From Malus domestica (Eukaryota; Streptophyta; Magnoliopsida; Rosales; Rosaceae): 64,000 nucleotides of DNA. The stretch covers positions 18,697,001 to 18,761,000 of the forward strand of contig NC_091664.1 in the NCBI RefSeq assembly GCF_042453785.1, written 5' to 3'. Position 1 is the first letter of the stretch; each line of letters opens with the position of its first letter. Shown here one piece after another: positions 1 through 60,637 of the stretch. A model generated the notes under the pieces. The model saw only the letters and a program-made list of their open reading frames with translations. It was not told where the DNA came from and made no database searches. Position numbers and translations under genes: made by a program.

Positions 1-381
1 CCAAAAGACTATCTTGACTGAAGACTTGGGGGACTACTATTTATACCATATTTAGGGCCTCGTATTTAGATCTTGTACAAATACTCAGGGACTTAAATGT
101 AATTATGTAATAAAGGAAGGGGCAAATATGTAATTGGGGGATGAGCCCTTATTCTATAAAAGAGCCTCATCATCCTCACAAGCCCTAAGCCTCTCACCCC
201 CTCTCAAAGCTCTCACATTACAGAGCTCATTCTCTCTCTCTCCCTCAGATAAATACATATTCAGTGTGCACGTAACCCAAACCTTGGAGTGAACCACGAT
301 ACATCTTGTGTTATTTACATTACATGCAGATTCAGGGTCGGATTTACATTGTTCCAAGACCTCCGGTTTTGTGCATTAACA
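1..381 (+). mobile_element. 3' end of a non-autonomous LTR retroelement (internal tail plus LTR)
   Basis: Positions 1-37 match the internal sequence that precedes the 3' LTR of the element at 2747-6558 (GAAGACTTGGGGGACTAC, a probable polypurine-tract region). Positions 38-381 are an LTR of the same family: it starts TATTTATACC, contains TATAAAA and a CT-rich stretch, and ends GTGCATTAACA. The first dinucleotide is TA instead of TG, a sign of age. The rest of the element lies outside the window, so a target duplication cannot be checked; GAAAG follows the LTR. It lies about 260 bp upstream of the dead importin gene. Confidence 0.8.
155..161 (+). promoter_or_regulatory. TATA box of the LTR
   Basis: TATAAAA follows a conserved CCCTTATTC context that recurs in the two LTRs at 2747 and 6198. 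By position it is the RNA polymerase II promoter of the LTR. Confidence 0.5.
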
Positions 382-2746
382 GAAAGTAACGGTATGTGGT
401 AGATTCCAACAACTAATAAAATTCATGTGGTAAAAATACAAAATTAAAAGTTAAGATAGTATTTGCATACCTGCTTTTAAGTTCAGGTGGTACTTGTGCA
501 AAATTCTCTATTTCTTTTACATCCAAACAATGACGTTTTGACCACATCATCATCACCTTCTAAATACAATTCAAAATCCTCCTTTCGTACATTTCTCTGC
601 TCTTAGGCTTTAAGCTAGTTTCGAAGCTCTCTTCTGCATCTCTAATGGCAGATGATACTATGGCTTCTCATAGAAGAGACCCTATCAAGTCCTCAGATAA
701 GTTCCTCTACGCTATTAGGTTGCTTATAAAATTCGGGAAATGGATGGGAAAATCAAAATTTCAATGGAATTTATGTTGAATTCTGGATTAGGTCTCTGTG
801 ATTTGTGGGTTCAGTTCAATTCAGAGTTTGATTATGTAATTTTTCCACCTTTTTTTCTCGTTATCCAAACGGAAAATCAAGCAATTAGATGTTAAGTAAG
901 AACAAAGAGGGGATTACTTGAATTGGGTTCTATTCTTTGGGGGTCCTAAACCACTTAACAATTAATTAGATACAAAAGTTTTCAACTTTTTATCATTTGC
1001 CTTGCGAGCGGACTACATGTAATTTTTGTTAATTTTGTTGGAGCTGTATTGAGTTGTTATGTGTACAATTCTAATTGTGTGGAAAATTTAGTTGCCAATG
1101 TTGCCGGACAGCGAAGGCGGTAACAAGCAGTTTCTGTAGGAAAGGAAAGAAGAGAATCGCTGGTGCGTGCGAAGCGTTTGTGCAGAGTAGGGATTAGCGG
1201 GGATAGTGATGATACGGTTGACGGTGAAATGATCATTGATGAAGAGCAATCCATCTTGGATGCTCAAACTTCTTCAGCAGTGGAAGGGTTGAAGTCTGCG
1301 GTTGCATATCAGTATGTGAATCTAGTTCGTCTACACAAATATTGTGAGAATTTTAAAAGAACATCAGGCTCTATTTTGTGAAAACATAAGATATGAAAAC
1401 ATGGAAATCTTCATCGAAAGATACGAAACATAGAGTCGTTCAATGGTTTCTGTAAATCCATTCAACACCATTTGTGTACTTTATAGGGGAAAAGGTGCAT
1501 TGCAAAAAAAGGTGAGGCCCTTCGTGAACTCAGACGCTTACTATCAAGATCAGAATTCCCTCCTGTTGAAGTTGTCCTTCAAGCTGGAGCAATACCTTTA
1601 TTAGTGCAATGTTTTTCATTTGGCTCTCCAGATGACCAGGTCCAGCCAATTTTTTGCATAATATGGTTTCTTTTGGTTTTATAAATTCTAATTTGTATAT
1701 TCAGCATAGACTATTGATAAGTAGTGCTTTTATGGAACTTTTTTTCAAGAAAAAAAAGGAAAGAAGGAACTTTGATGTTATTTTCTGTTAGCTTCCATTG
1801 AGTAATTAGCAGCTTTCAGAATTTCGGGTTTCTAAAAACCCATCAAACACACCTATGGAGTTTGGGCACGAAAGTATCACACGCCAGAGAATGTTTTCAG
1901 AAATGATTTGGAATTAATAAACTTCTTGAGAAATACTTGAGGATATATTCTGTCTCTTCACCTTTTTTTTAAATTTTAATTTTTATATAATGCAGTTGCT
2001 TGAGGCGGCTTGGTGCCTCACGAACATAGCAGCAGGGAAACCTGAGGAAACAAAAGCTTTGTTGCCTGCTTTACCGTTGCTTATTGCTTATCTTGGAGGT
2101 TGGTAATGTCTTATGTGCTCCTTTTAGATCCCAGTAACAATTTCTTTCTCCTGTTTAAGTTTCTTTATCTCTGTGCATATGTTATACCAAAATTTTTGGC
2201 TCTACACTTTGCATTTGTAATGTGATATTGGCGTAGGTGGTGGTTGTAAGGACCTAAGATTTGAAGTACCACTTCAAAGCTGAGATCATGGCATGCGATA
2301 CTTAGTGCAGAAGTTTAAGCTATCTGATCAGATGGCTGCTTTTGATATTTCATCTATAATTGCAAGTCTTTTGTAGAAAATAGTTCCTTGCCTGTTGTTG
2401 AGCAATGTGCATGGGCATTGGGAAACATTGCTGGTGAAGGGAAAGAGCTCAGAAATATTTTGCTATCTCAAGGTGCATTGTTACCTCTTGCAAGAATGAT
2501 GCTTCCAAACACGGGTTCAACCGTGAGAATAGCTGCTTGGGCCTATCAAACCTAATCAAGGTGCTAGATTACTTGCCTCGTGAATAATTTTATAACAACA
2601 TGCACATTTTCTTCATAAGTCAAACTTGTTTGGATTTTGGTGGCCTTTTTGCCCCACTTACCACCATTCTTACCTGGAAATTAGTGTGACATTCAAGGTT
2701 CCTTTCTTTTGCACCATTAGTGTGTTTTTCATTTTATATTTCACTG

Positions 2747-3089
2747 TGTTTATACCATATTTAAGGCCTCGTATTTAGATCTCGTACAAATACTTGGGGA
2801 CTTAAATGTAATTATGTAATAAAGGAAGGGGCAAATATGCAATTAGGGGAGAAGCCCTTATTCTATAAAAGGGCCTCCTCACCCTCACAAACCCTAAGCC
2901 TCTCACCCCCTCTCAAAGCTCTCATATTACAGAGCTCCTTCTTTCTCTCTCTCCCTCAGATAAATACATATTCAGTGTGGACGCCCAAACCTTGGGATGA
3001 ACCACGATACATCTTGTGTTATTTACATTACATGCAGATTCACGGTCGGATTTACGTTGTTCCAAGACCTCCGGTTTTGTGCATCAACA
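2747..3089 (+). repeat. 5' LTR
   Basis: 343 bp. It matches the LTR at 6198-6558 and the LTR at 38-381 along nearly the whole length. It contains TATAAAA at 2864-2870 and a TCTCTCTC tract about 80 bp downstream, the probable leader. It ends directly before the primer-binding-site-like motif. Confidence 0.9.
2864..2870 (+). promoter_or_regulatory. TATA box in the 5' LTR
   Basis: TATAAAA in the same context as in the sister LTRs. Transcription from here would run through the captured gene fragments. Confidence 0.5.
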
Positions 3090-3110
3090 TTTGGCGCCGT
3101 CTGTGGGAAT
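3090..3110 (+). other. Primer binding site of the LTR element
   Basis: TTTGGCGCCGTCTGTGGGAA begins directly after the LTR end. TGGCGCCG-type motifs at this place are typical of plant Ty3/gypsy-related elements and their non-autonomous derivatives. Confidence 0.7.
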
Positions 3111-3149
3111 CAATACGAAAAATTGTGTCGATTCTCTTTCATTTTTTCA

Positions 3150-3905
3150 CCTCCACCGTGAATCTGCAAAATCTACAAAAAAACTCTAATAACCCGAAAA
3201 CTTTCTCACCACCGACACACAATCCACCCCAACTCAGCCTCCAACAGGCCTTCACCAACCTCCAAAACCATTGCTCCGGTTTCCTCCACCACCTCTCCTG
3301 CCTTCCCCTCTTCAACCCCAACCTTTCTTCCCTCCAAACCCACCTTCAATCCACCTTCTCCAACCTCCAGAATCAAGCAAAACATGCATTTGATTCCGGG
3401 TTTTCGAGCTTCAATCTGGTGCATTCTTCTAGCAAGAACCCAGTTTGGGGTCGAATTGGGGTGAGTAACAAAGCCTAGGTCGCCAATTCCTCTGGTGATG
3501 AGGCTAAAGCCGCCATGTCCACCGAGTACATCGAAGATCGGCTTGCCGGGGTGCCGATTTATGCTCTCAGCAATGCCTCGGAGGAATTCGTGCTGTTTTC
3601 TATTGCTTCCACTAGGAAGTCTCTTGAGCATAATAGGATCATGGACCCCAGAATGCGAAGCGGGTCGAAAGTGGTGGCTGTGGCTTTAAATAAAGTTTTT
3701 TTTTCTTTTCAGCTTAAGGTCAATTGGGTAGCCTTTAGTTTGATTCCTGAGTATTCTCAAGTCAAGAATGCGCTTAAGGAGAGGGAAAATGATGGAACTT
3801 CTGATGATGATGGCTTTTCTGGTGTGCTAGTTTTCCAGTCAATGAGCTTGGTTCTGAAAAACCAAAGCAAGAGCTACCGTCCAGTATTTTTCAGGAAGAG
3901 AGAGA
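3150..3905 (+). pseudogene. TIC22: Captured TIC22-like gene fragment (chloroplast import translocon)
   Basis: TIC22 is an intermembrane-space protein of the chloroplast import machinery. A nearly full-length copy without recognisable introns is present. The N-terminal part has the LQTHLQSTFSNLQNQAKHA type segment (3340-3390), then a stop at 3475-3477. The core from 3515 reads MSTEYIEDRLAGVPIYALSN, then KVVAVALNK, QLKVNWVAF, SQVKNALKERE and finally [10 protein letters not shown]. About 15 residues of the family core are missing after TRKSLEH. A pyrimidine run ending CAG at 3695-3711 sits in the middle of ALNKV..QLKV and could be leftover intron sequence. The copy ends abruptly where the MADS fragment begins (about 3905). 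It is not a functional gene. Confidence 0.85.
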
Positions 3906-3906
3906 G

Positions 3907-4341
3907 ATGGGCAGAGGTAAAGTTAAGCTGAAAAGGATAGAGAATAAAAGTAACAGGCAAGTGACTTTTTCCAAAAGAAGAAATGGGCTGCTCAAGGAAG
4001 CTTTTGAGCTATCAGTTCTCTGTGATGCTGAGGCTGTCCTCATTATTTTCCTTGGTCGTGGCAAGCTCTATGATTTCTCTAACAGTTTAAGGCTGAGCGC
4101 TTCGCCGCCGAGGTCGCCCTTAACTACCTCTCCAATCGTGGCCCATCTCACTCTCTTGCCGTTAGGATTCTGGATGAGACGGGGGTTTACAAGAACCTCT
4201 TGTAAGAAATTGCTCAAAGGGCAGGAGCTTTGTTGCCGCGGTACACGACCTGCTGGAGGCTCATTTGATTTGGATTTAGTACAAACTTGCTGTGATCTAG
4301 GTTTAGTACAAACTTGCCTTCCTAGCAGGAGCTTCGTTTGA
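3907..4341 (+). pseudogene. Captured MADS-box exon 1 with an open reading frame
   Basis: The ORF starts [20 protein letters not shown] and covers the whole MADS domain to GKLYDFSN (residues 1-59). That is about what exon 1 encodes in plant MIKC-type MADS genes. Odd residues against the family are EAF for KAY and FLGRGK for FSSRGK. The frame stays open for 144 codons because it runs, in a wrong frame, through the DRB2-like fragment. There is no I, K or C domain. If transcribed from the LTR it could give a MADS-domain peptide; that is inference. The MIKC subfamily (SEP/AGL6/FUL side) cannot be settled from exon 1 alone. Confidence 0.9.
4086..4252 (+). pseudogene. Captured dsRNA-binding protein fragment (DRB2-like)
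   Basis: In a frame different from the MADS ORF the sequence reads [20 protein letters not shown], then [17 protein letters not shown], a stop (4203-4205, in place of Gln), and [15 protein letters not shown]. This is the end of the first and the start of the second dsRNA-binding motif of plant DRB2/3/5-type proteins, which work with RNase III enzymes in small RNA pathways. The junction to the MADS fragment is a few bases wide. Only about 55 codons are present. Confidence 0.85.
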
Positions 4342-4550
4342 TCTAGATTTTCGAATGCCTAGCTGTGATTCTTCTTTACAGCAAGTATAGGAAGGACCGT
4401 GAACAATGCTCTTACTTCAAACCTGTAGCGCGTGGCCTGCTAGGACTTCCTGCTGGATGCTCAGCTGCGGCTTCGTGCTTTGAGGCCATGACGATGTCTA
4501 CCATCTGCCAAGAAAAGAAAAAGAAAAATGAGGAAGCATATATACCAAAG
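4253..4550 (+). other. Unidentified interior of the LTR element
   Basis: It contains two near copies of TTTAGTACAAACTTGC (about 4276-4317) and a segment ending TTCTTTACAG at 4380 that looks like the 3' end of an intron, followed by sequence I could not assign to a protein. It may be a further captured fragment. CATCTGCCAA occurs here (4502) and again at 4680, on both sides of the H+-PPase fragment. Confidence 0.4.
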
Positions 4551-4641
4551 TTGCTTATGTCGGTGCAGATCTTATCGGCAAGGTTGAAAGAAATATTCTC
4601 GAGGATGGCCCAAGAAACCCAGCTGTGATAGCTGATAATTG
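4551..4641 (+). pseudogene. Captured vacuolar H+-pyrophosphatase fragment
   Basis: About 30 codons read [16 protein letters not shown], then [14 protein letters not shown]. This matches a highly conserved cytosolic loop of the vacuolar proton-pumping pyrophosphatase (AVP1 family), where the family has [20 protein letters not shown]. Pro to Leu and Asp to Gly changes fit drift. The segment stops where the family continues GDNVGD. Confidence 0.85.
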
Positions 4642-4898
4642 CCTGCGCACTTCCTCAACCAATACGGAAGCGTTGTCTGCCATCTGCCAAAAGGGAAAAG
4701 AGAAAGCAAAAGCAAAGAATAAACACCCCACCAGAATGATGTGATCTACTTTTCTTGGTAGATGTATGATGTGATTTATTTTTCTTATCTTTCGGAGACA
4801 TCTGTATAAACCCCATCAGAGGGTAAAAAAAAAAAAAGCCCAAAATAATGGGCTGGCATGTTGTGGAGAGCAAAGGCCCATAAGCCCAAAATAGCACA

Positions 4899-5190
4899 AA
4901 CCAGGTCATCAAAAGTACGCCCGATACTCCCCAATTATTCGGCAACTCGCCGCTATTACCACCAACCAGGTGATCAAAAGTACGCCCAGTACTCCACAAT
5001 TATTCGGTAACCCCCCACTATTACCACTAACTAGGTGACCAAAAGTACGCCCAGTACTCCAAAATTATTCGACAACCCGCCGCTATTGCCACCAACCAGG
5101 TGATGAGATATACAACCCGTACTCTAATTTGGCAACTAGCCATTCATGCCACCAACCAAGTGATCAAAAGTATACCCAGTACTCCAAATT
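4899..5190 (+). repeat. Tandem repeat, 65-bp unit, about 4.5 copies
   Basis: Units begin ACCAGGTGATCAAAAGTACG and contain CAGTACTCC and CTATTACCACCA. They start near 4900, 4965, 5030, 5095 and 5155. Later units are shorter and more diverged. This is internal sequence of the LTR element; no coding potential is seen. Confidence 0.8.
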
Positions 5191-5192
5191 AT

Positions 5193-5425
5193 ACATGAGC
5201 ATTACTCATGTCATTCATACATAAACATTCATGAGCATCACTCATGACAATCATACATAAACATTCATGACCATCATTCATGTCAACATTCATAAGCATC
5301 ACTCATGACAACATTCATGAGCATCACTCATGAAAACATCCATGAGCATCACTCATGACAACATCCATGAGCATCACTCATGTCAATCAACATAAACATT
5401 CATGAGCATCACTCATGTCAATCAG
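5193..5425 (+). repeat. Tandem array of CATGAGCATCACTCATG units
   Basis: About eight units, 30-35 bp each early and shorter later. Each core CATGAG..CTCATG is a small imperfect palindrome. Spacers vary (ACAATCATACATAAACATT and shorter). Internal to the LTR element. Confidence 0.8.
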
Positions 5426-5562
5426 CTTCAAAAGCTTCATTTACAGAGCTCTAGCTTCAAAAGCTTCATTTACAAAAGCTCCAGCTTCGAAAGCTTCATT
5501 TACAGAACTCTAGCTTTAAAGCTTCACTTGCAAAGCTTCACCTACAAAGCTTCAATGCAGGG
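5426..5562 (+). repeat. Tandem array of AGCTTCAAAAGCTTCATTTAC units
   Basis: About five units of 25-30 bp rich in AGCTT. It follows directly on the CATGAG array in the same LTR element. Confidence 0.75.
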
Positions 5563-5639
5563 TATACAAATACCGTCTCCGAACAACCGCCACTTCGGCC
5601 CATACATGGATTCAATTTGAAGTCTCCAGCCAACATACT

Positions 5640-5995
5640 CTATTGACCGAAGACTTGGGGGACTACATTATGTACCATATATTGGGCCTCAACTGGGCCT
5701 CATGAAAAATACTTGGGGAACTCTAGCCCATCATTTATGTATTGAGGAGCAAGCCCTTATTCTATAAAATGGACTCCCTCACCACCATTAGAGAGCATCG
5801 CCGCCTACTGAGCAACCGCCTCGCCGCAAGCATCAACTCTAGCCCATCATTTATGTATTGAGGAACGAGCCCTTATTCTATAAAATGGACTCCCTCACCA
5901 TCATTAGAGAGCATCAACTCTAGCCCATCATTCATGTATTGAGGAGCGAACCCTTATTATATAAAAGGGACTCTCTCACCTTCAAACGTCACAAA
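5640..5995 (+). repeat. Nested LTR-like segment with a triplicated promoter module
   Basis: After GAAGACTTGGGGGACTAC (5648-5665) an LTR-like sequence begins (ATTATGTACCATATATTGGGCC). A module starting ACTCTAGCCCATCATT and containing GAGCCCTTATTCTATAAAAT occurs three times, starting near 5720, 5836 and 5917. TATAAAA lies at 5763-5769, 5879-5885 and 5960-5966. It looks like a remnant of a related LTR inside the element, expanded in tandem. Confidence 0.7.
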
Positions 5996-6197
5996 CCGAG
6001 CCAACCAAGGCAACATAAGCCACGAGCCAAGCAGCCTCGCAGTGTATGCTACTTCTAGTTAAGAACCATTTCAGATTGAGCACTGCCTCATATCGAGTAT
6101 CAGTTCAAGACAACATCTAGTTACTTCGGCCCACACATGGACTGAATTTTAAGTCTCCAGCCAAAAGACTCTCTTGACTGAAGACTTGAGGGACTAC

Positions 6198-6558
6198 TGT
6201 TTATACCATATTTAGGGCCACGTATTTAGACCTCGTATAAATACTCGGGGGACTTAAATGTAATTATGTGATAAAGGAAAGGGCAAATATGTAATAAGTG
6301 AGGAGTCCTTATTCTATAAAATGACCCATCACCCTCACAATTAGAAGGGGCCAATTCCTAAGGCTCCTCACCCTCTCAACCCTCTCACTCTCAGAGCTCT
6401 CTCTCTCTCCCTCACTTCTCAGAGAAATATAATACAATCAGTGTGGACGTAACCCAAACCTTGGGGTGAACCACGATACATCTTGTGTCATTTACATTAC
6501 TTGCAGATTCACGGTCGGATTCACGTTGTACCAAGACCTCCGGTTTTGTGCATCAACA
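6198..6558 (+). repeat. 3' LTR
   Basis: 361 bp, same ends as the 5' LTR, preceded by GAAGACTTGAGGGACTAC. It differs from the 5' LTR by several substitutions and small indels around the CT tract. TATAAAA lies at 6315-6321. Confidence 0.9.
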
Positions 6559-7507
6559 CACTGTGTTTTATTTTGGTTCTTAATAACGTATCACCATCAA
6601 TGTGGACTTACACATCATCTTTGAGAAGAACTTGCAACATAACATTGGTTGTTAAATATGCAGGGACCTAATCCAAAGGCTGCAACGGAGCTCATTAGGG
6701 TTGATGGGTTATTGGATGCACTTGTTCGACACTTGAGAAAAGCGTAAGTTGTGTTTCATAAATCTAAATAGATTGCACTAAAGTTTTTTCATCATGATTT
6801 CTTGCCATTAAACTTTTGGATTGCCTTTCCTTATGATGATAGTGTACCATAAACTCGTTTCTTAAATTCAGAGATGATGAGTTAGCAACTGAAGTAGCAT
6901 GGGTGGTTGTGTATCTCTCAGCTTTTTAAAATCTTGCCACCAGTATGCTAGTGGAGAGTGATGTCCTTCAATTGCTTGTGCAAAGATTGGCTATGTCCAA
7001 TAGTTTGCAGTTGCTTATTCTGGTAAGGTGGAATCTAACTGTATATATAAGCTCTTTATTGACCTTCTCTTTCTTTAGATAATGCCTCGTGGAGCAACTT
7101 TTTGTATATGTATTTAATTGAAGGTTAAAATGGTTTACTGTTTTTAATGCTTCATTTACAGAGTGGTTGTACTAGTTCAAGTTTTCATTCCGTACATCTT
7201 ATGTTTTATCTTATCTATATGGTTGTACATGTTCCCATTGCAGAAGCCTCCCCCTGGCCATATTTCTTTGGAAATTTTGTACCGTATGTGAGTTGTGTGT
7301 CGGGTCCTAATATCCACTTCTGTGCCTTAATAAAAAAGAAAATAAGTTTCTAAGTATTTCTTGACCTATAAGATGTTGCTGGATTTTATCCTGATGATAA
7401 AATCTAGGCGAACATTTAAATTCTAAATTTTACATATTTTTATAGGAAAACTAAATTGACAAGGCAATTTAGAGAAGTATGACATGGTTCCATTGTTGAG
7501 CCCAGAT

Positions 7508-10500
7508 AAAGGAGGAGGGGGAGGGCGTCAGGTAGTCGACAGCCGGCACTCCACAGTTACGTCGAATCCTTATTACAATGAATCCAGAACGAAATTGCGC
7601 TAAAGCTAGGACGTCACCCGTAAGTGGCGCGCTGTGTGGCTCGAGCACAATGATAAGTGAGCAAGGGTCGCTGTATCTCCATCGGCACCCGGATGCAGTG
7701 TTAAATGAGCAAGGGGGCCATAGAAACTTCTTTTCGAACGACTCCACTCAAAGTTGTTTGGGAGCATATGCTCCTATCAACTTTACATAGGACACACAAA
7801 AGAAGTACTTTGATCCTATTAGACGGGGGATGGTGAAGAAGCTAGGACAGAAGGGTAGAGTTCAAGAGAGTAGAATGCGTTTAGGAACGTGGAATATATG
7901 AACCTTAATGGGAAAATCTATGGAAGTAGTGGAAGTTATGGTGAGGAGAAGGATAAATATTATGTGCCTACAAGAAACTAAGTGGGTTGGTCTTAAGGCA
8001 AAGGATCTAGAAAACTCAAGGTTTAAGCTTTGGTATTCGGGCACAAATAGAATGAGAAACGGTGTTGGCATCATTGTGGACAAGACCTTGACACAAGATG
8101 TTGTAGATGTCAAGAGGGTAGGAGATAGAATCATGGCAATCAAAATTGTAATAGGACAAGAACTAATCAATGTGATTAGTGCGTACGCACCTCAAGTAGG
8201 GTTGGATACGAGTTCGAAGGAGAAATTTTGGGAAGACCTTGGAGACTTGGTGCAAGGAATTGCTCAGACGGAGAAGTTATTTATAGGAGGAGATTTAAAT
8301 GGACACGTGGGCAGGGAGACAGGCAACTATGGAGGTTTTCATGGTGGCCATGGTTTTGGGGAGAGAAACGAGGATGAGGAAGCTATCTTGGATTTTGTAA
8401 TGGCATATGATCTCTTCTTAGCCAACACCTTCTTTAAGAAGAGAGAAGAACATGTGATCACCTACAAGAGTGGGTCGTCAAAAACACAAATAGATTTTCT
8501 TCTAATGAGGAAAGGGGATCATATAACTTGTAAGGATTGCAAAGTTATACCGGGGGAGAGTTTGGCTAATCAACATCGCTTGTTGGTGATGGATGTACAT
8601 ATCAAAAGAATGAGAAAAAAGAACAAGACTTGGAAGTGCCCAATGACTAGATGGTGGAATCTAAAAGGAGAAAAACAAGTCATTTTCAAAGAGAAAGTAA
8701 TTACCCAGTGTGTGTGGGATAGAGAGGGGGGAGCTAGCCAAAGGTGGGATTCCATGGCTAGCTGTATCCGAAAAGTAGCAAAAGAGGTATTAGGAGAGTC
8801 CAAGGGCTTTGCTCCACACCAAAAGGAATCTTGGTGGTGGAATGAGGAGGTACAAACAAAGGTGAAGGCTAAGAAGGAATGTTGTAAAGCCTTATACAAG
8901 GATAAGACCGATGAAAATGGTGAAAGGTATAGAAGAGCGAAGCAAGAGGCGAAGAAAGCTGTGAGAGAAGCTAAGTTAGCGGCTTATGACAATATGTATA
9001 AGCGACTAGATACCAAAGAAGGAGAGTTGGATATCTATAAACTAGCTAGAGCAAGGGAAAAGAAGACAAGGGACCTAAACCAAGTGAGGTGCATCAAGGA
9101 TGAGGATGGAAAACTTCTTGCTACAGAGAACGCGGTCAAAGACAGATTGAGAGGCTATTTTCATAATCTTTTCAATGAAGGACATGAAATGAGTACTTCT
9201 TTAGGGGAGCTGAGTAACTCAGAAGAAACTACTCATTTTATCGTCGAATCAGGAAGGAAGAAGTGGTTGTAGCTTTGAAGAAGATGAAACATAGAAAAGT
9301 CGTGGGCCCAGACGATATACCGATTGAAGTGTGGAAAGCCTTGGGAGAGACAGGTATAGCATGGCTCACTGACCTTTTCAATAGGATTTTGAAAACGAAG
9401 AAAATGCCAAATGAGTGGTGAAAGAGCACCTTGGTGCCTATTTACAAGAATAAGGGCGACGTACAAAATTGCATGAACTATAAGGGTATTAAGCTAATGA
9501 ATCATACAATGGAGCTCTGGGAGAGAGTCATTGAGCATAGATTGAGGCAAGAGACACGGGTTTCGGACAACCAATTTGGGTTCATGCCAGGGCGTTCAAC
9601 CATGGAGGCAATCTATCTCTTACGAAGATTGATGGAAAGATATAGAGATGGGAAAAAGGATTTACACATGGTCTTTATAGATTTGGAAAAAGCATATGAT
9701 AGGGTCCCAAGAGACATTCTTTGGAAGATTTTAGAGAAGAAAGGAGTACGAGTAGCATATATCCAAGCTATAAAGGATATGTATGAAGGAGCAAAGACTG
9801 CCGTAAGAACTCATGAAGGACAAACCGAAAGCTTCCCCATAACTGTAGGATTACATCAAGGCTCATCCTTAAGTCCTTACCTTTTTGCGTTGGTAATGGA
9901 TGAGTTAACATGACATATTCAAGATGATATTCCTTGGTGTATGCTTTTCGCAGACGATATAGTGTTGATAGATGAAACTCAGGAAGGGGTAAATGCGAAG
10001 CTTAACCTTTGGAGAGAAGTGTTGAAATCTAAAGGTCTTCGCCTAAGCCGATCAAAGACAGAATATATGGAGTGCAAGTTCAGTGCAAATGGAGGCCAAA
10101 ATGAGTTAGGGGTGAGGATCGGAGATCAGGAAATACCAAAGAGCGACCGTTTTCGCTACCTAGGATCTATCTTGCAAAAGAACGGAGAATTAGATGGAGA
10201 TCTCAACCATAGAATACAAGTTGGATGGATGAAGTGGAAAAGTACATCCGGCGTGTTGTGTGATCGTCGTATGCCACTGAAGCTTAAGGGAAAATTCTAT
10301 AGGACGACAATAAGGCCGGCGATGCTGTATGGCACAGAATGTTGGGCGGTGAAGCATCAACACGTACACAAAATGGGTGTAGCAGAGATGAGGATGCTTC
10401 GTTGGATGTGTGGGCACACGAGAAAGGATAAGATTAGGAATGAGGATATCCGAGGTAAAGTAGGAGTAGCCGAAATTGAAGGAAAGCTGAGAGAAAATTG

Positions 10501-10720
10501 GTTACGGTGGTTTGGACATGTGCAAAGAAGGCCTACTGACGCTCCGGCTAGAAGATGCGACTACGAGACAGAGGTTCAGGGCCGAAGGGGTAGAGGAAGA
10601 CCTAGGAAAACTTTGGAAGAGACTCTAAGAAAAGACTTAGAGTACTTAGATCTAACGGAGGACATGACACAGGATCGAGCACAATGACGTTCTAAGATTC
10701 ATATAGCCGACCCCACTCAG
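7508..10720 (+). mobile_element. RTE-type LINE, near full length, inactive, 3' end lost
   Basis: Plant RTE LINEs encode one polyprotein of AP-type endonuclease and reverse transcriptase. The 5' leader is 7508-7878. The coding frame begins MRLGTWNI near 7876, with a stop at 7900-7902 in place of Arg. Endonuclease motifs follow: LQETKWVG, INVISAYAPQ, FIGGDLNGHVG and SSKTQIDFLL (open 7908-9272). After a frameshift near 9235 come reverse transcriptase motifs: [47 protein letters not shown] and LFADDIVLI (9431-9913 and 9941-10687). The C-terminus has MLRWMCGHTRKD. Stops at about 9419-9421 and 9912-9914 also stand where Arg is expected. The copy stops at GACCCCACTCAGTG and lacks the tail seen in the copy at 15090. 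Confidence 0.92.
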
Positions 10721-23603: not shown

Positions 23604-25763
23604 CTATGCCTGAAGTGGTTCATAACTATCATCCAGCATCTGCAACCACAACTCCTCTAGCATTGCATATATTTTACCTTTCTCAGGATGCAGGCAATCT
23701 TCAACAAAAAAATACATGGGTCCTATTCTTAACCTCAATCCAACTCTGCCCCGGAACTTTCCTGACATCCCTTTCTCTCATCAAGTTCCTTAACCTTGCA
23801 ACATCATCCCAACTGCCAGAAGAAGCATGGATGTTGCAAAGCAACACAAGAGCAGCAGAATGGGTAGGATCTAATTTTAGTATATTCTCTGCTGCCCGTT
23901 TTCCAATCTCAACGTTCCCACGGGTTCTGCAGGCAGCGAGTAGAGTCATACATACCACAACGTCCGGTTCAAATGCCATTTGCTTGATGAATGCCTCTGC
24001 TTCATGTAAGCATCCGGAACGTGCAAGTAAGTCAACCATGCAAGAACAATGCTCTATTGTCGGTACAATCCCATGCTCGGATTCCATGGTTTTATATACT
24101 TTCCACGCTTCCTCTACCAGTTCGATATGACTGCAAGCAGTAAGGCACCTACCAGTGTAACTTCATTGGGTTTTATGCCCAATTCCTTCATTCTTTTGAA
24201 AATGTCAAGAGCTTCCTCTCCATATCCAAACTAAGCGTAACCCACGCTAAACTACTCCACGAGACAACATCTGGATCCTCCATCCAGCCGAAGAGCTTTT
24301 GCACACTTCCAATTGATCCACATTTTGTATACATGTCAATTAATCCATTGCTGACAGTAACATCAAGCACAATCCCACTTTTTACAGTAAGGCAACGAAT
24401 CTGATTCCCAACCTCTAGAGATGCTATATTTGCACAAGCTCCAATTACATTACCCAAAGTAATATGATCAGGCTTAGTTTCAGAAATACGCATTAAATTT
24501 CGTAAATGGAAAACCTTCCCCGACCTGGTTGTGCTGCATGCATGCGGTAATAATAGCATTCCAAGAAACTGAATCAGCGTGACTTCTTATATCTTCAAAC
24601 ACAAGAAATGCATCATAGAGATTTGAACACTTTGCATACATTGTTAGTAAAGCGTTGGACACAATAACGATAGAATCAAAGGCCCCCTTGATAATGTAGG
24701 AGTGGATCTGCATACCCTGATAGAGCGTTGAAGGGCTTGTGCAAGCAGTAAGTATTGGGAGAACACTAACTTCATCGGGGATCAGTCCCTTATGCCGCAT
24801 CTGAGAAAAGAATGATAATGCTTCATCAGAATCTCCAGCATTCGAGAATCCTGAAATAATTGCATTCCATGACACTAAATCGAGCCTGTCTATCCAATAA
24901 AACACTGTTCTTGCAGATTCTAAATGCCCACATTTTGCCTACATGTCACAGAGTGAGCATCCGGCAAATATGTCTCTCCCTAAACCAAATTTTGTGCACA
25001 TCCCATGTATTTGCTTTCCAAATTCTGGTTTAAGAAGGCGGCCACACGCACTGAAAGCACTCCCAAATATAAACTCATTCGGCTGGTAAGCTCCCTGACG
25101 GAGCATTTCTTTGAAATGATCCAAAGCTTCTTTGTCAAAACCAAGCTGAGAAAACCCTGCAATCATCGAACCCCAAGAAATCAAGTCCTTAGTCGGAACA
25201 CGAGAAAATACATCAAAGGCGTCCGCAATTAGACCAAACTTTGTGTACATTGAAGTAAGGGCATTTTGTGCAATAGGGTGAGAACCAGTCTCTGATTTTA
25301 TAACATGGGCAGGCAGCTGTCTCCCCAACAGTTCATTCCCCAGACCTGAACAAGCTTTTACGACGCTTCCAAAGGTGAAATGATCAGGCATACAACCCGA
25401 CCTCAGCATTTGGAAGTAATATTCAATGGCTTTATCCTCTTGACTATTCTGAGAGTACCCAGAAATCAGTGAAGTCCAAGAAACCACATTTCTCTCATAC
25501 ATTGCATCGAAAACCTTACGTGCATCCGCGAACGACCCACATTTTCCATACATGTTAAGAATGTGGATCTGGAAAATAATGTCCGGGTGGTAATTGGAAG
25601 CCAAAATATGGCCGTGGATTTTCCTGCCGTGTTCGAGAGACCTGAGAGACGAGCAAGCAGAAACCAAATTTGTGTAGGTGGTGGGAAATATTGGGAGGTT
25701 CGTGTTCGTTTGCAAAAACTTAAACGCTTCAATGGCATCTCTGTAAAGCTTTTGCTTGCACAA
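23604..25763 (-). pseudogene. PPR protein, PLS subclass with E-type end (At3g53360-like), broken
   Basis: PLS-type PPR proteins bind organellar RNA, often for editing. An intronless frame carries many PPR motifs (for example LGRQLPAHVIKSETGSHPIA and NGLIDMYTKCGSIGS) and ends with an E-type region (VPGQSWIEVKNRTHVFF, then EDCLHPEKGKIYAMLEELWL, stop at 23604). Lesions on the minus strand: TAG at 24939-24941 (SLCDM* instead of SLCDMYAKCG), a frameshift near 24510, TAG at 24231-24233 (GYA*FGYGEEA), a missing base near 24150, and one extra T in a run at about 23705-23711. The N-terminus is also gone: no ATG is found before the LCKQKLYRDAIEA segment and a stop lies just upstream. With five lesions it cannot make a full protein. 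The match to At3g53360 is from memory of that family. Confidence 0.9.
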
Positions 25764-35150: not shown

Positions 35151-37712
35151 ATGGGTACAACGGAAAGAACAAAGAAGAGGGTCCAATTATGGAAGAAAGC
35201 TGCCGTCCATTTTGCTTTGTGTTTTGTTATGGGGTTCTTCTCAGGTTTTGCCCCAACGGATAAGGCTTCGCTTTTCGCTAGAACCGATGCCGTGGTTTCC
35301 TCCAATAAATCACTGGACTTTCCGCCGCAGTCAGTAGAACCGCCGCAAGAAATAGCACCGGATGTTATTAATAGAAGTTTGATAGCTGCAGAGACACCAA
35401 ATGTGTCAATAGCAGCAGCAGCAGAACCTGCAAGGCATAAAGAGAGCTCCGAAAACTCGAGGTTCACACAAGAAGAAGAAGCAGAGGAAAAGAAAGAACC
35501 CGAGGTGACTCCGAGAAGGTTCATAATCATAGTCACTGCAACAGCAACGAGCACGAAAGACATTAAGTTTAAAAGTGTGTTTTTGAGAAGACTAGCCAAT
35601 ACTATAAGGTTGGTTCCTCAGCCGTTGCTTTGGATCGTGGTGGCGCCGAAAACGGAGTCGAATGAAGTGTCTGAAGTGCTGAGGGGAACGGGGATTATGT
35701 ACAGGCATTTGGTTTCGAGAATGAATTTCACAGACGCAGAAGCTGAAAGGGATCGCCAGAGGAACATTGCTCTTAAGCACATTGAGAAGCACAGGATTAG
35801 TGGGATTGTCCACTTTGCAGGGCTTTCTAATGTTTACGATCTTGGCTTCTTCGACCGACTCAGAGAAATTGAGTACGTAAATATTCCTTAATTCCTTATT
35901 TTTTTTCATTCGATTGAAATTTTAACTTTGAATATTATGTTGTAAAATTAATTTTACCTAGTATTATGCTGTTAGAAATAGATCATGATATCTTGAAAAT
36001 TTCCTTTTTTTTTTATTTCTTTGAACGTAAGAACCTATGGTAATTTAGCTGGAGGGATGGAGGTTTCAAAGTTCGAGTAGTTTTTAAGAAAGGTGTGATT
36101 GCTGGAAGGGGAAAAAAAGAAGTGTCCCTTATTGCTTATTTGGACTAAAAAGGTTGTGAGTAGTGAATTTTGTTGGACTTTGCCAATATTCTAAAGTGCA
36201 TATGCCAATATTCTAAAGTGCATATGTAAGTCTGAATTTTTGAAACAATTGTAAGTCTTGCAGTGGGATATACACACATCAATAGCAAACATTTGTTTAG
36301 GTGCGTGCATTTGACTATTATATATGTATAATTTTTCATTCAAAATTTATGAATAAAAACAACTACGTATAATTTAACTTTGATTTATTTATCACTATAT
36401 ACAAATGGATACATTGTAATATCTAAACGGAAATTTGTTGAAGGAAAGAATCTTTTGTCAAGTGCTTCATTTGTCTATTAATTTGCAGGGTTTTTGGGAC
36501 ATGGCCAATGGCTATACTTGCAGCAAACAGAAAGAAGGTGATCATTGAAGGACCTGTATGTGATTCTTCACAAGTCATAGGATGGCATTTGAAGCAAATG
36601 AACAATGAAACAGAGACTAGGCCTCCCATTCATATCTCAAGTTTTGCTTTCAATAGTTCAATTCTTTGGGATCCCGAGAGATGGGGTCGCACTTCATCTC
36701 TTCAAAGCTCCTATCAGGTACATGAATTGTCTGCTATCATGTTTCAAAACTACGACTGCTAAATATGTAGAATCATATTTTTTAGGATAACGTCTCAATT
36801 CATAATTTGATACTATAACATGCATCTCACATATTTGTCATTCTTTCCTCTTATATGCCTCATGAAAGTGGAGCTGTGTGAAATTTAATATGCACCCATC
36901 GATGATAGACATGCTTCCATGCAAAACGCATATTTCATAACTTTTCTGAAAAAAATTTAAATTACAATAAAAGGGAAAGTATCATTAAGAAAAAAGGAAA
37001 ACTAATGAAAAGAATTTGAAAATTTGAGTTTTAACAATAAGGACAAAATAAAGGATAAAGTAAATAGTACCATGATTGATTTTTTTAGTGTAAAAATATA
37101 ATTTTTCGTTAAAGTGAACAATATTGAAAACTTTTTGTTAAAATTCCCTAAGAAAAAAGATATATGGAAGAAAATAAAATTATTTAAGTTGGTGTAGGTG
37201 TCGCTGGGGTCCTGTCGCACCAACCTGTTAGAGTATTTTATGCTTTTAAATATTATAAGTAAAATGTTTTAGTAGAGGTTGGCATGCTCCAACCATTTTA
37301 AAATCATTCAACTAACAACGCCTTTGAAAAAAACATAAATATAAAAACTATTGCAAAGATAAAAAGATGGAATTGACAAAAAAAAAATTATAAAAGTAAA
37401 TACCATATCAGAACTAATTGTATTTATATATAATTAGGTTACTCTCTTTCAATTATTATTTGAATTATATAAGCATGTGGATGCTTGTTTTGCTTTTGAA
37501 TATATGTTTATATATTTTTTAAGTTTAACAGCATGGTTTTTTAATTGCTGTTTTGGCAACAGAATTCAATCAAATTTGTAAAGGAAGTGGTTCTTGAAGA
37601 CGAAACAAAACTAAAGGGAATCCCACCAGAAGAATGCTCCAAGATCATGCTTTGGTGTCTTCGTCTTCATGCTGCAGGAGGAGCCACTGCACCACACCAA
37701 ATCAATCAATGA
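35151..37712 (+). CDS. IRX9: IRX9, GT43 family xylan synthesis protein
   Basis: Three exons in phase: 35151-35872, 36489-36717 and 37563-37712, 366 aa. IRX9 acts in the Golgi with IRX10 and IRX14 to extend the xylan backbone of secondary walls. It is a type II membrane protein: MGTTERTKKRVQLWKKAAVH, then a hydrophobic span at about 18-35 (FALCFVMGFFSGFA). A variable Pro/Glu-rich stem runs to about residue 120, then the GT43 domain starts at TPRRFIIIVTATAT. VFGTWPMAILAANRKK, GPVCDSSQVIGWH and AFNSSILWDPERWGR are family hallmarks. Where active GT43 members have DDDN, this protein has AGLSN (223-227), so the DxD metal site is missing. Arabidopsis IRX9 also lacks it and is thought to have a structural role. 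No lesion was found. Confidence 0.95.
36994..37149 (-). repeat. Short dispersed repeat (MITE-like), copy 3, in IRX9 intron 2
   Basis: Reverse complement of the unit at 25880-26031: GGAAAACTAATGAAAAG at the left, AAAGTAAATAGTACCATG in the middle, TTTTCGTTAAAGTGAACA and GTTAAAATTCCC at the right. Confidence 0.75.
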
Positions 37713-57847: not shown

Positions 57848-60637
57848 ATGGGGAAGAAAGGTTGGTTTTCTTCAGTAAAGAAAGCTCTGAGCCCTGATTC
57901 TAAGAAGAAAGAGCAGGTTTGAAGATGTTCGAATTCAGCTAACGTTGTGTTTAGTTGTATAGTTGTATATTCCGATACGAGTCTTTGATGTTTTTTGTCA
58001 CTTCTTTTTTCCAGAGATCAGATCAATCAAAAAAGAAATGGTTTGGGAAACAAAAGTACCCAGAGTTTGAGTCTACTTCTTATCAACCGTCCATTATATT
58101 GCCACCTCTTCCACCACGAGAAGAGGTGAAATTAACCAATGTGGAGAATGAGCACAACAATGATGCTTACTCTGTTCCAGTCACCACCACAGTCACCCCT
58201 ACCGCAGTGGCTGAGGCTGCAGTTTCTGTGGCTCCTCCAACTCAAGCTGTTGTGGAGGTTGTCAGACTCCCTACAACTACTCAGTATGCTGGAAAATCAA
58301 GGGAGGAAGTGGCAGCAATCAAGATTCAAACGGCATTTCGAGGATACCTGGTATGATTTTAGAAATTTATATTTTGGCCTTTGACATCCTTGATGGCAGT
58401 GTTCATAAGTTTATAAATGGATGCTAAAATATAACCTTTTATTTTTGGAATTAACCTGAGTTGTTTTCCAAACTTTCCAGGCAAGAAGGGCGTTGAGGGC
58501 GTTAAGAGGGCTTGTTAGGCTGAAATCATTGATAGAGGGATCTGTTGTGAAACGGCAAGCCACAAATACCCTCCGATGCATGCAGACTCTATCTCGTGTG
58601 CAGTCTCAGATACGTTCCAGGAGGATTAGGATGTTAGAAGAGAATCAGGCTCTGCAAAGGCAACTCCTACTAAAACATGCAAAAGAGCTTGAGACATTGC
58701 GGGTCTGTTTTATCACTCTTAGTTTGTTATAATCCTTTAGATTGCAAAGTCTAAGTTCTCCTTTGGATTTAACATTTCATTTTCGTAGTAATTAAACATA
58801 TGAACTGTTTGGGAGACAAGTTATACTGGCTAGGTTTTCATTTGAACCTAATTTCTAAACGCTTCTTTGTGAATAAACTAAAAAGTACGGGTTTAAAGTT
58901 TTTTCTCATGCTGGTGTGAGAAATGCAAGTTAGAATTATTGCATTGTTGACTCAGCCAAGTCAAATGGGACAATTACAAAGGTTGAAATCAAAGCAAAGA
59001 TTCCCAAACAGATATATATTTGGAGTTTTATTGAGATAACTTTTCATCCAGATGAACCTCAGCGGTTAACTCATTTTGAAAATTGATACAGCTTGGGGAT
59101 GAATGGGATGATAGCATACAGTCAAAGGAGCAAGTTGAAGCAAACCTATTAAGCAAACACGAGGCAGCAATGAGAAGGGAAAGAGCACTCGCTTATGCAT
59201 TCTCTCATCAGGTATTCTAATCTATTATATTACATAACATAAATGAATTGAAAGGATTAGGAATAGTTTATGCAGTCTCCTCTCCTGTGCCAAATTATGA
59301 TGTAATGATGAAAGCCATGGGAACATTCAACTAGTTACCACTATGCTATTTGATTAGTTATAGTGAGTTTTGTTAGCCTGTAGGTTTTATTTTCCAAGCC
59401 TGAAACCAAATATTTTAGTATGCAACAAACCCTTGTTTACAATTCAGCAATATTCTCCAGCCTTGATTCCTTTGGGATTCTTTCTTCATTTCATTACTAT
59501 TAACTAGGTTGAGATCACATCATTTCCATACTTGGAGTGAGAAAGGTGTAATCTTGGTCATTATTGGTCTTGTCGAATGATATGGTACATGCATGATCAG
59601 GTGACGTAAAGAGCTCACAATTGCAATTAAATCAGCTAAGTTAAGATTTATAGAGTCGAAGGTTAGGAAAATCATTTTGAAGAAAAAATAACTTGGTTTC
59701 CTTTAGTATAGTTTGCTTATCTGTGCTCTTAGTTGATTGGTCATTTCCTTGTGCATGTCATTGTGTGTGCGTGTGTGTCTGTGTCTATGTTTACGAATTA
59801 CATATGGTGAATATAAACTGCTTGGTCCGTGGTTACCATTTATGAAACCAAAAGAATTTCAGCCGCTTATTTAATTTTAAGTTTTCGTGAATCTTGAATT
59901 CACCTCATTCTGGGTCTAACCCCTGTATCACTCCACAGAAAAATGGGAAGAATACTACAAAATCTGTAAACCCAATGTTCATGGATCCAAGCAATCCCAC
60001 ATGGGGTTGGAGCTGGTTGGAAAGGTGGATGGCTGCCCGGCCTTGGGAGAGTCGTGGCATGACAGATAAAGACATGCAGGATGACCATGCATCTGTAAAG
60101 AGTGCAAGTCGCGGCATTTCTGCTGGAGAAATTAACAAGTCCTATGCTCGCTACCTCCTCAATTCCGACAAGCAATCCCCAACAGCCAGTGAAAAGCCAA
60201 GCCATCCTGGATTTCGGTCCCCTTCAAGTCCTTCTAGGCCAGCTTCGAAAGTAGCTCGAAAATTAAAGCCAGCAGCAAGCCCAAGGGGTAGTAGGGTCCC
60301 AGATTCTGACACGAAAAGCATGGTCAGTGTGCAATCAACTCAGTTAAGGAGGCACAGCATTGCTGGCTCCTCTGTGAGGGATGACGAAAGCCTAGATAGT
60401 TCTCCAGCAGTTCCAAGTTACATGGTACCAACAAAATCCGCAAGAGCTAAGTCCAGGCTGCAGAGCCCAGCAGAGAAGAATGGGATCACCGAGAAGGACT
60501 TGATGCCTGAGTCAGCTAAGAAACGGCTGTCATTCCCAGCCTCCCCCGCGCGACCAAGGCGGCATTCTGGTCCACCAAGGGTTGACAGCAGTATAATTAC
60601 AGCAAACAAAGTGAGTGATATTGGAGTCGAAAGCTAA
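57848..60637 (+). CDS. IQD2: IQ67-domain protein, IQD2-like
   Basis: Five exons, every intron in phase 0: 57848-57916, 58015-58350, 58481-58702, 59092-59211 and 59939-60637, 481 aa. IQD proteins are plant scaffolds that bind calmodulin and associate with microtubules, membranes or the nucleus. MGKKGWFSSVKKALSPDSKK is the typical basic start. Residues about 24-115 are variable. The IQ67 domain begins near 119 with an IQ motif (IQTAFRGYLARRA, 127-139) cut by the intron between Leu135 and Ala136, as is usual in the family, followed by RGLVRLKSLIEGSVVKRQA and RVQSQIRSRRIRM. NPTWGWSWLERWMAARPWES and, near the end, RRHSIAGSSVRDDESL and SYMVPTKSARAKSRLQSP are conserved in the IQD1-4 group. The tail is basic and rich in Ser and Pro. 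No lesion. IQD3 or IQD4 orthology cannot be excluded. Confidence 0.94.

Follow-up and report, generated by a model that had tools for sequence, protein, structure and literature searches.

A non-autonomous LTR retrotransposon family of apple with fragments of different host genes in a shared slot

The window analysed here is a stretch of 64,000 nucleotides (nt) from apple, Malus domestica (NCBI RefSeq assembly GCF_042453785.1, contig NC_091664.1, positions 18,697,001 to 18,761,000). At window positions 2747-6558 lies an element of 3,812 nt bounded by two direct long terminal repeats (LTRs), which carries fragments of four host genes in an internal region of 3.1 kb. The fragments derive from genes for TIC22, a MADS-box protein, the RNA-binding protein DRB2 and a vacuolar H+-PPase, and all four are in sense orientation within the element. 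It is one copy of a multi-copy LTR family whose members share LTR ends, leader and 3' module, with a hypervariable slot between them.

The element and its host-gene fragments

The two LTRs are flanked by a perfect 5-bp target-site duplication (TSD), as a reading of the sequence alone had proposed. A putative primer-binding site (PBS) follows the 5' LTR and a polypurine-like tract (PPT) precedes the 3' LTR; matching stretches are present in most other copies. A six-frame Pfam scan of the element found Tic22, H_PPase and SRF-TF above the cut-off and one sub-threshold match, and neither gag nor pol was found. With TSD, PBS and PPT but no gag or pol, this is a non-autonomous LTR element.

The four fragments named in the sequence-only reading proved to be real, both from Pfam, PDB and protein matches and from parent genes of TIC22, MADS and DRB2 in the host genome. 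The TIC22 fragment (Pfam E 1e-36) is nearest to a Malus baccata protein (E 1.1e-114, 81% identity), and its parent gene lies at C4:2.36 Mb (loci L011 and L041). The MADS fragment (Pfam E 1.2e-22) matches exon 1 of two C6 genes at ~92.8-92.9% and of one C14 gene at 89.8%. The DRB2 fragment matches Prunus DRB2 (E 1.6e-22, 85% identity over 86% of the 63-amino-acid piece), while the top score of the protein search (5.5e-36) went to a long Vanilla protein at 69%; the parent gene is at C3:10.52 Mb, with piecewise identity of 91-100% to a Malus domestica protein, which fits an apple host. The H+-PPase fragment is recognised by Pfam (E 1.4e-15) and PDB (E 4.6e-12). Could these be chance similarities or low-complexity matches? 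The short DRB2 piece has no Pfam match, and its best PDB match (E 0.014) is not significant. However, the E-values of 1e-12 to 1e-114, the parent loci with matching splice sites and the empty antisense frames of the family (0 of 75 with a Pfam match) make chance vanishingly improbable, and the parent loci already refute it.

Parent genes were compared with three fragments of the window cassette (TIC22, MADS and DRB2). The TIC22 fragment consists of exons 1-4 joined, with introns of ~119, 607 and 2,395 nt precisely removed. The DRB2 fragment joins the last part of exon 1 to the first part of exon 2 of its gene, and the 979-nt intron between them is removed. In total, four introns are absent from the window copy, three of TIC22 and one of DRB2, which bears out the proposal of gene capture by an LTR element. 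The description of the TIC22 copy as near full holds for exons 1-4 only; the fragment has a 42-nt deletion and one TAG stop. A T-rich stretch within it (3697-3716) was considered as a retained intron and rejected; it shows no match to the end of the gene's intron 1 and is therefore read as a T-tract expansion.

Where do the captured pieces end? On the right, TIC22 stops exactly at the exon-4 splice donor, TTTTTCAGGAAG/gtcag (AAG/gtcag; the slash marks the border), and MADS exactly at the exon-1 donor, where the C6 genes read TTTAAG/gtatat. The left end of TIC22 lies inside an exon, and the right end of DRB2 lies inside exon 2, not at a splice border. At the join between MADS and DRB2 the DRB2 gene reads CTCTCCGCCAG/GCC, which is acceptor-like and is equally an AG or AGG microhomology. 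One predicted Prunus protein (P0244) suggested that the DRB2 piece was a single complete internal exon spliced onto exon 1 of MADS; this was rejected because both ends of the piece fall within exons of the apple gene, the left end in exon 1 and the right end in exon 2. The fragments were said to be joined with almost no spacer, which does not apply between DRB2 and H+-PPase, where ~280 nt intervene, part of them a module found also in two other copies, L009 and L019.

Table 1. Features of the LTR element, in window coordinates
Feature	Position	Strand	Basis or remark
5' TSD, CACTG	2742-2746	.	flank comparison
5' LTR, TGTTTA...ATCAACA, 343 nt	2747-3089	+	sequence comparison
Putative PBS, TGGCGCCGTCTGTGGGAA	3092-3109	+	2 nt after LTR; other copies similar
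Leader, left border of variable slot	3090-3180	+	in 24 of 25 other copies (not L029)
TIC22 fragment, exons 1-4	3181-3898	+	Pfam, protein search, parent gene
MADS-box fragment, ~10 nt of 5' untranslated region plus exon 1, ATG at 3907	3897-4091	+	Pfam, parent genes
DRB2 fragment, amino acids ~55-108, end of exon 1 plus start of exon 2	4092-4251	+	protein search, parent gene
Module common to copies L009 and L019	4337-4528	+	copy comparison
Vacuolar H+-PPase fragment, 36 codons	4532-4639	+	Pfam, PDB; within 3' module (from ~4516)
Tandem repeats, unit 60-65 nt	4892-5186	+	repeat comparison
Tandem repeats, unit 25-36 nt	5183-5424	+	repeat comparison
Second PPT-like and LTR-start-like segment, then three 81-nt repeats with TATA-like motifs	5592-5996	+	
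PPT before 3' LTR	6185-6197	+	sequence
3' LTR, 361 nt	6198-6558	+	sequence comparison
3' TSD, CACTG	6559-6563	.	flank comparison

The segment with the second PPT-like tract, the LTR-start-like sequence and the TATA-like repeats has counterparts in other family copies, and is perhaps a trace of earlier recombination or a duplicated promoter.

A family with different cassettes in one slot

The host genome (651,096,769 bases, 19 contigs) was searched with window 3090-4700 as the query. The search gave 43 matches, for which the best 40 of 1841 first-look candidates were scored. Several full copies with the same four fragments would have pointed to a family that amplified after capture. None was found among the 43 matches listed, where a full copy would be expected near the top, and only the window matched along the whole length. 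Among the same matches, at least 32 places match the H+-PPase module besides the window and L002/L009. The sequences fetched covered 25 loci with 26 of these 32 places (two of them in a single locus), together with L009, L010 and L019, giving 28 loci, and six places were left out. Because the fetched copies come from the top matches, the sample is the best-scoring part of the family and not a random one. Three loci were dropped: L024, in which two module copies form an inverted pair without a clear left side; L032, with an LTR beside the module but no cassette; and L034, in which no LTR was found.

In the 25 other copies that remain, the ends of the element are fixed: LTR, PBS leader, a 3' module that usually includes H+-PPase, tandem repeats, PPT and LTR. 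The leader of all of them except L029 matches up to window 3147-3187. The H+-PPase module is found in 23 of the 25, the exceptions being L010 and L019. Two pairable LTRs are present in 18, or 19 with the window copy, and these 19 elements measure 3,322-4,451 nt. L015 has three LTRs at 3250-7756 (tandem copies), and in L021 (7007-7400) a PBS-like sequence comes after the 3' LTR.

Between leader and module, the other copies hold cassettes of 1,063-2,041 nt, the last 50-150 nt of which are shared backbone in most copies. At the 3' border of the slot, CTGGAGTACACC is preceded in 17 of 25 copies (counted by eye) by TTTTACAG, which resembles a 3' splice site. A different sequence takes its place in the window copy and in L009, L010 and L019. 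When the 26 cassettes, window included, were compared all against all, only three near-whole pairs were seen (L035/L040, L033/L039 and L021/L027), and there are therefore 23 distinct cassettes. L040 has ~300 nt extra inside a cassette otherwise common with L035, so that modules have been gained or lost. Partial sharing links the window copy with L010 (755 nt of L010) and with L009 (620 nt), L031 with L036 (679 nt) and L016 with L025, and there are smaller shared pieces. That a single element collected four genes is consequently too narrow a description: the H+-PPase module is common to nearly the whole sample, MADS and DRB2 recur in L009, and TIC22 recurs in L010.

What do the cassettes encode? 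At a Pfam threshold of E up to 0.01, the 75 sense frames of the 25 cassettes gave 25 matches to 21 distinct families, and the 75 antisense frames gave none. The families are cupin, Tic22, Rho-GDI, peptidase M16, GH9, Mog1, MAP70, MADS, PRA1, syntaxin, Myb, hexosaminidase-like, GH17, RlmN-like, RAM2-type acyltransferase, squalene/phytoene synthase (SQS), zinc ribbon, GDA1/CD39, DUF716, inositol kinase and PARG. Of the sense frames, 50 were scanned singly, and the Myb, zinc ribbon and PARG matches are not placed in a particular copy. The singly scanned frames put a Pfam match in 17 of the 25 cassettes, and L037 has an eIF4A piece without a Pfam match (PDB E 3.9e-19), so that 18 copies have a host-gene match. 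Three assigned matches fall under Pfam's own cut-off (L015 hexosaminidase-like, L021 RlmN and L023 GH17); L015 and L021 have no other match, and the cassette of L021 is close to that of L027, whose match passes. Two families occur in one cassette in L022, L023, L026 and L036. The presence of different host pieces in the same slot in most sampled copies means that repeated shuffling of host exons appears to have taken place in this family.

Many pieces begin near the start of a domain and stop early. By eye, the profile ranges are 1-117 of 444 for GH9, 1-57 of 554 for MAP70, 1-83 of 263 for SQS, 1-102 of 139 for Mog1 and 2-71 of 143 for PRA1. The GDA1, Rho-GDI, DUF716 and hexosaminidase pieces start away from the domain start, and the eIF4A piece is internal. 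The profile ranges suggest that captured pieces may be biased towards the 5' parts of mRNAs.

History of the window copy and route of capture

The two halves of the window mosaic exist separately in other copies. L010 has the leader followed by TIC22 exons 1-4, with the same right end as the window copy, and then a different open reading frame (ORF). L009 has other sequence followed by MADS, DRB2, the module and H+-PPase. At 708 TIC22 sites, the window copy and L010 have 23 differences from the gene in common, as expected from one capture; 28 differences are private to the window copy and 23 to L010. In the window copy, the TIC22 and MADS halves meet in a GA-rich stretch at 3897-3905. Since the halves are found separately and meet there, the window copy is most likely a recombinant of L010-like and L009-like lineages. 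Assembly in several rounds with recombination, as first suggested for this element, agrees with these arrangements.

We consider it likely that template switching of reverse transcriptase brought spliced host RNA into one slot of this LTR family time after time, and that modules were exchanged from copy to copy. The enzyme, provided in trans by an autonomous relative, would copy the element RNA, jump to a co-packaged host mRNA and then jump back to the element RNA. The slot of ~1-2 kb would thereby receive pieces of spliced host mRNAs again and again, with the H+-PPase piece as an old component of the 3' module. Later rounds would swap slot modules between co-packaged family RNAs; for the window copy this would have been a swap between the TIC22 lineage and the MADS-DRB2 lineage, joined in the GA-rich stretch, before insertion into an intron of a putative decayed importin-alpha gene. 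Template switching with proteins in trans, and with it this order of events, is what we infer because the intron loss, the sense-only cargo, the fixed flanks and the module exchange fit it.

Several points weigh against this account. The proposed mechanism is read from DNA sequence alone. Parents were compared for three fragments of one cassette, and intron loss is known from the window copy only. Seven of the 25 cassettes have no recognised host gene (L018, L019, L020, L029, L033, L038 and L039), on the basis of all three sense frames for the first six and of one singly scanned frame for L039; PDB searches of one L018 ORF and one L038 ORF gave no match. Measured against both C6 parents, the MADS pieces of the window copy and L009 have just 6 differences in common, and they are less similar to each other (91.3%) than the window piece is to the C6 genes (92.8%); the MADS piece alone is therefore no proof of common descent, and MADS may have been captured separately. 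Finally, two of three testable right-hand ends lie exactly at splice donors, a position not expected if the enzyme simply switched on mature mRNA. This hints at a part played by unspliced RNA or by splicing of the chimeric RNA.

Did the introns leave after capture rather than before it? Genomic DNA or unspliced pre-mRNA might have been captured and the introns spliced from the chimeric element RNA before the next round, with host donors joined to the next acceptor. The donor-exact ends of TIC22 (AAG/gtcag) and MADS (AAG/gtatat) would follow from this, as would the start of DRB2 just past an acceptor-like CTCTCCGCCAG/G in exon 1 of its gene. However, the right end of DRB2 and the left end of TIC22 lie inside exons, no truncated intron was recognised in the element outside the unassigned stretch 4252-4336, and a short AG or AGG microhomology could also have set the MADS/DRB2 join, so that we regard this route as unlikely. 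Similarly doubtful is the broader idea that the family is an exon-trapping retroelement, in which the 5' ends of host pre-mRNAs would enter the slot, borders would be set by splicing from donors to acceptor-like sites, and each round would yield a new multi-gene chimera able to transpose. The acceptor-like slot border in this idea comes from the 17 copies in which TTTTACAG precedes the 3' module.

As an alternative to a single insertion, ectopic recombination or misassembly could have brought neighbouring elements or separate insertions together in this mosaic. LTR pair divergence (K) across the 19 copies is 0.011-0.089, which corresponds to insertion ages of ~0.4-3.4 million years at r = 1.3e-8, a rate given in PMC5664825 that is not apple-calibrated; the window copy is the oldest. 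Its LTRs are the most diverged of the 19 pairs (91.6% identity; 85.9% in a three-way alignment and 81.9% by BLAST), and the 5' and 3' LTRs each have a closer match among the LTRs of other copies (93.5% and 94.1%); the 5' LTR is 93.8% identical to an LTR at window 40-381. Moreover, importin-alpha similarity around the element was found by search on the 5' side only. With the LTR border allowed a shift of at most 2 or 3 bases, a perfect 5-bp TSD is seen in 15 of the 19 two-LTR copies, window included, and mismatched flanks agree in 7 of 342 pairs. Against a joining of insertions, CACTG stands perfect on both sides of the window element, with a chance of ~2% by this comparison. Furthermore, leader-TIC22 recurs in L010 and MADS-DRB2-H+-PPase in L009, and the importin reading continues in the 3' flank by eye. 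Greater age or partial gene conversion of one LTR would explain the divergence; such conversion is possible, and the case for it from the three-way alignment weakens because another alignment gives 91.6%. The TSD and the arrangements shared with L009 and L010 argue for one insertion, and the refuting case of LTRs from different insertions, although the divergence remains on its side, is very improbable.

The insertion site itself looks like an intron of a decayed importin-alpha gene. Arm repeats and PDB importin-alpha matches occupy the 5' side (window 642-2575), with a stop at about 1120 and the loss of one base at about 2548, both read by eye; the 27-amino-acid piece of the 3' flank (window 6664-6744) has no PDB match, so that importin on this side was withdrawn as a reason for a single insertion. 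Window 1-381, just upstream of the importin-like gene, is the 3' end (PPT and LTR) of another family copy. Elsewhere in the window, positions 7908-10684 hold, on the same strand, an endonuclease/exonuclease-type ORF and a sub-cut-off reverse-transcriptase Pfam match, resembling a long interspersed element. ORFs at 24939-25763, 35151-35888 and 59894-60634 encode pentatricopeptide repeats, a glycosyltransferase of family 43 and DUF4005.

Known systems and the place of the apple family

How does this family compare with known gene-capturing elements? Bs1 of maize is an LTR element that acquired parts of three host genes (ATPase, xylan endohydrolase and beta-1,3-glucanase) by transduction (PMC13317346). 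The apple element, like a Bs1-type transducing element, has exon fragments from more than one host gene enclosed by its LTRs (PMC4717578, PMC13317346), here four genes with four introns absent. Both are multi-gene LTR elements; however, Bs1 is one chimera, whereas the apple family has a fixed slot with different cassettes in most sampled copies. GmaRetroS15 of soybean, a terminal-repeat retrotransposon in miniature (TRIM), has LTR ends, a 5-bp TSD and exons of three host genes without introns, and the gene-bearing soybean TRIMs measure 1,172-1,449 bp and comprise 30 elements from seven of 289 subfamilies (PMC4717578). In contrast, the apple copies are 3.3-4.5 kb long, and host genes were recognised in 18 of the 25 copies sampled from a single family.

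In maize B73, 425 gene-bearing LTR elements reflect at least 189 captures, and none has two or more standard nuclear genes under the conditions of that survey (PMC2774510). The likeness lies in host-gene fragments inside intact LTR elements, and the difference in the several genes per apple element. In pepper, LTR-borne retroduplicated NLR genes have lost their introns, ~72% of them lie inside LTR elements without gag/pol, and some single elements have two or three genes (PMC5664825). Pepper concerns mainly one gene class, whereas the apple fragments are short and mixed. Pack-MULEs also have many copies with different host-gene pieces, some of them expressed as chimeric transcripts (PMC13317346). 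They are DNA transposons that keep exons and introns (PMC4717578), unlike the apple element with its direct LTRs, 5-bp TSD, absent introns and no terminal inverted repeat at its ends.

Among retroelement classes, the lack of gag and pol domains sets the element apart from autonomous Ty3/gypsy or Ty1/copia. The tandem repeats before the 3' LTR resemble those of Retand elements (Ty3/gypsy Tat/Retand; PMC11963269), which is a lead only, as the apple element has no reverse transcriptase. TRIMs are very small elements with a very short internal region, and large retrotransposon derivatives (LARDs) have a large conserved non-coding internal region, usually >4 kb (PMC4668562). The window copy is too long for a TRIM, and its internal region is shorter than that of a usual LARD and has a slot that is not conserved. 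A survey of pear lists TRIM and LARD families, and its main text does not mention gene fragments, capture or chimeras (PMC4668562). The TGTT/AACA families of Rosaceae (PMC5659011) differ in their terminal dinucleotides. No family with per-copy cassettes was found among the open-access papers listed, with subscription papers and preprints outside that scope. Literature on TIC22 and retrotransposons gave nothing relevant by title, and one LTR motif searched in viral contigs gave 0 matches.

Capture of several genes by an LTR element is already known from Bs1 and GmaRetroS15; what sets the apple case apart from them is one family with per-copy cassettes in a fixed slot. Against the maize survey without multi-gene elements (PMC2774510) stand 23 distinct cassettes in 26 apple copies, several of which have at least two genes. 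Such chimeras may be confused with genes in apple gene models and transposable-element libraries. If the pattern is true genome-wide, the entry route of host RNA, whether as mature mRNA, pre-mRNA or DNA, would be testable by comparing many junctions with their parent genes, and LTR-driven exon shuffling would be largely the work of a single family whose capture slot can be recognised.

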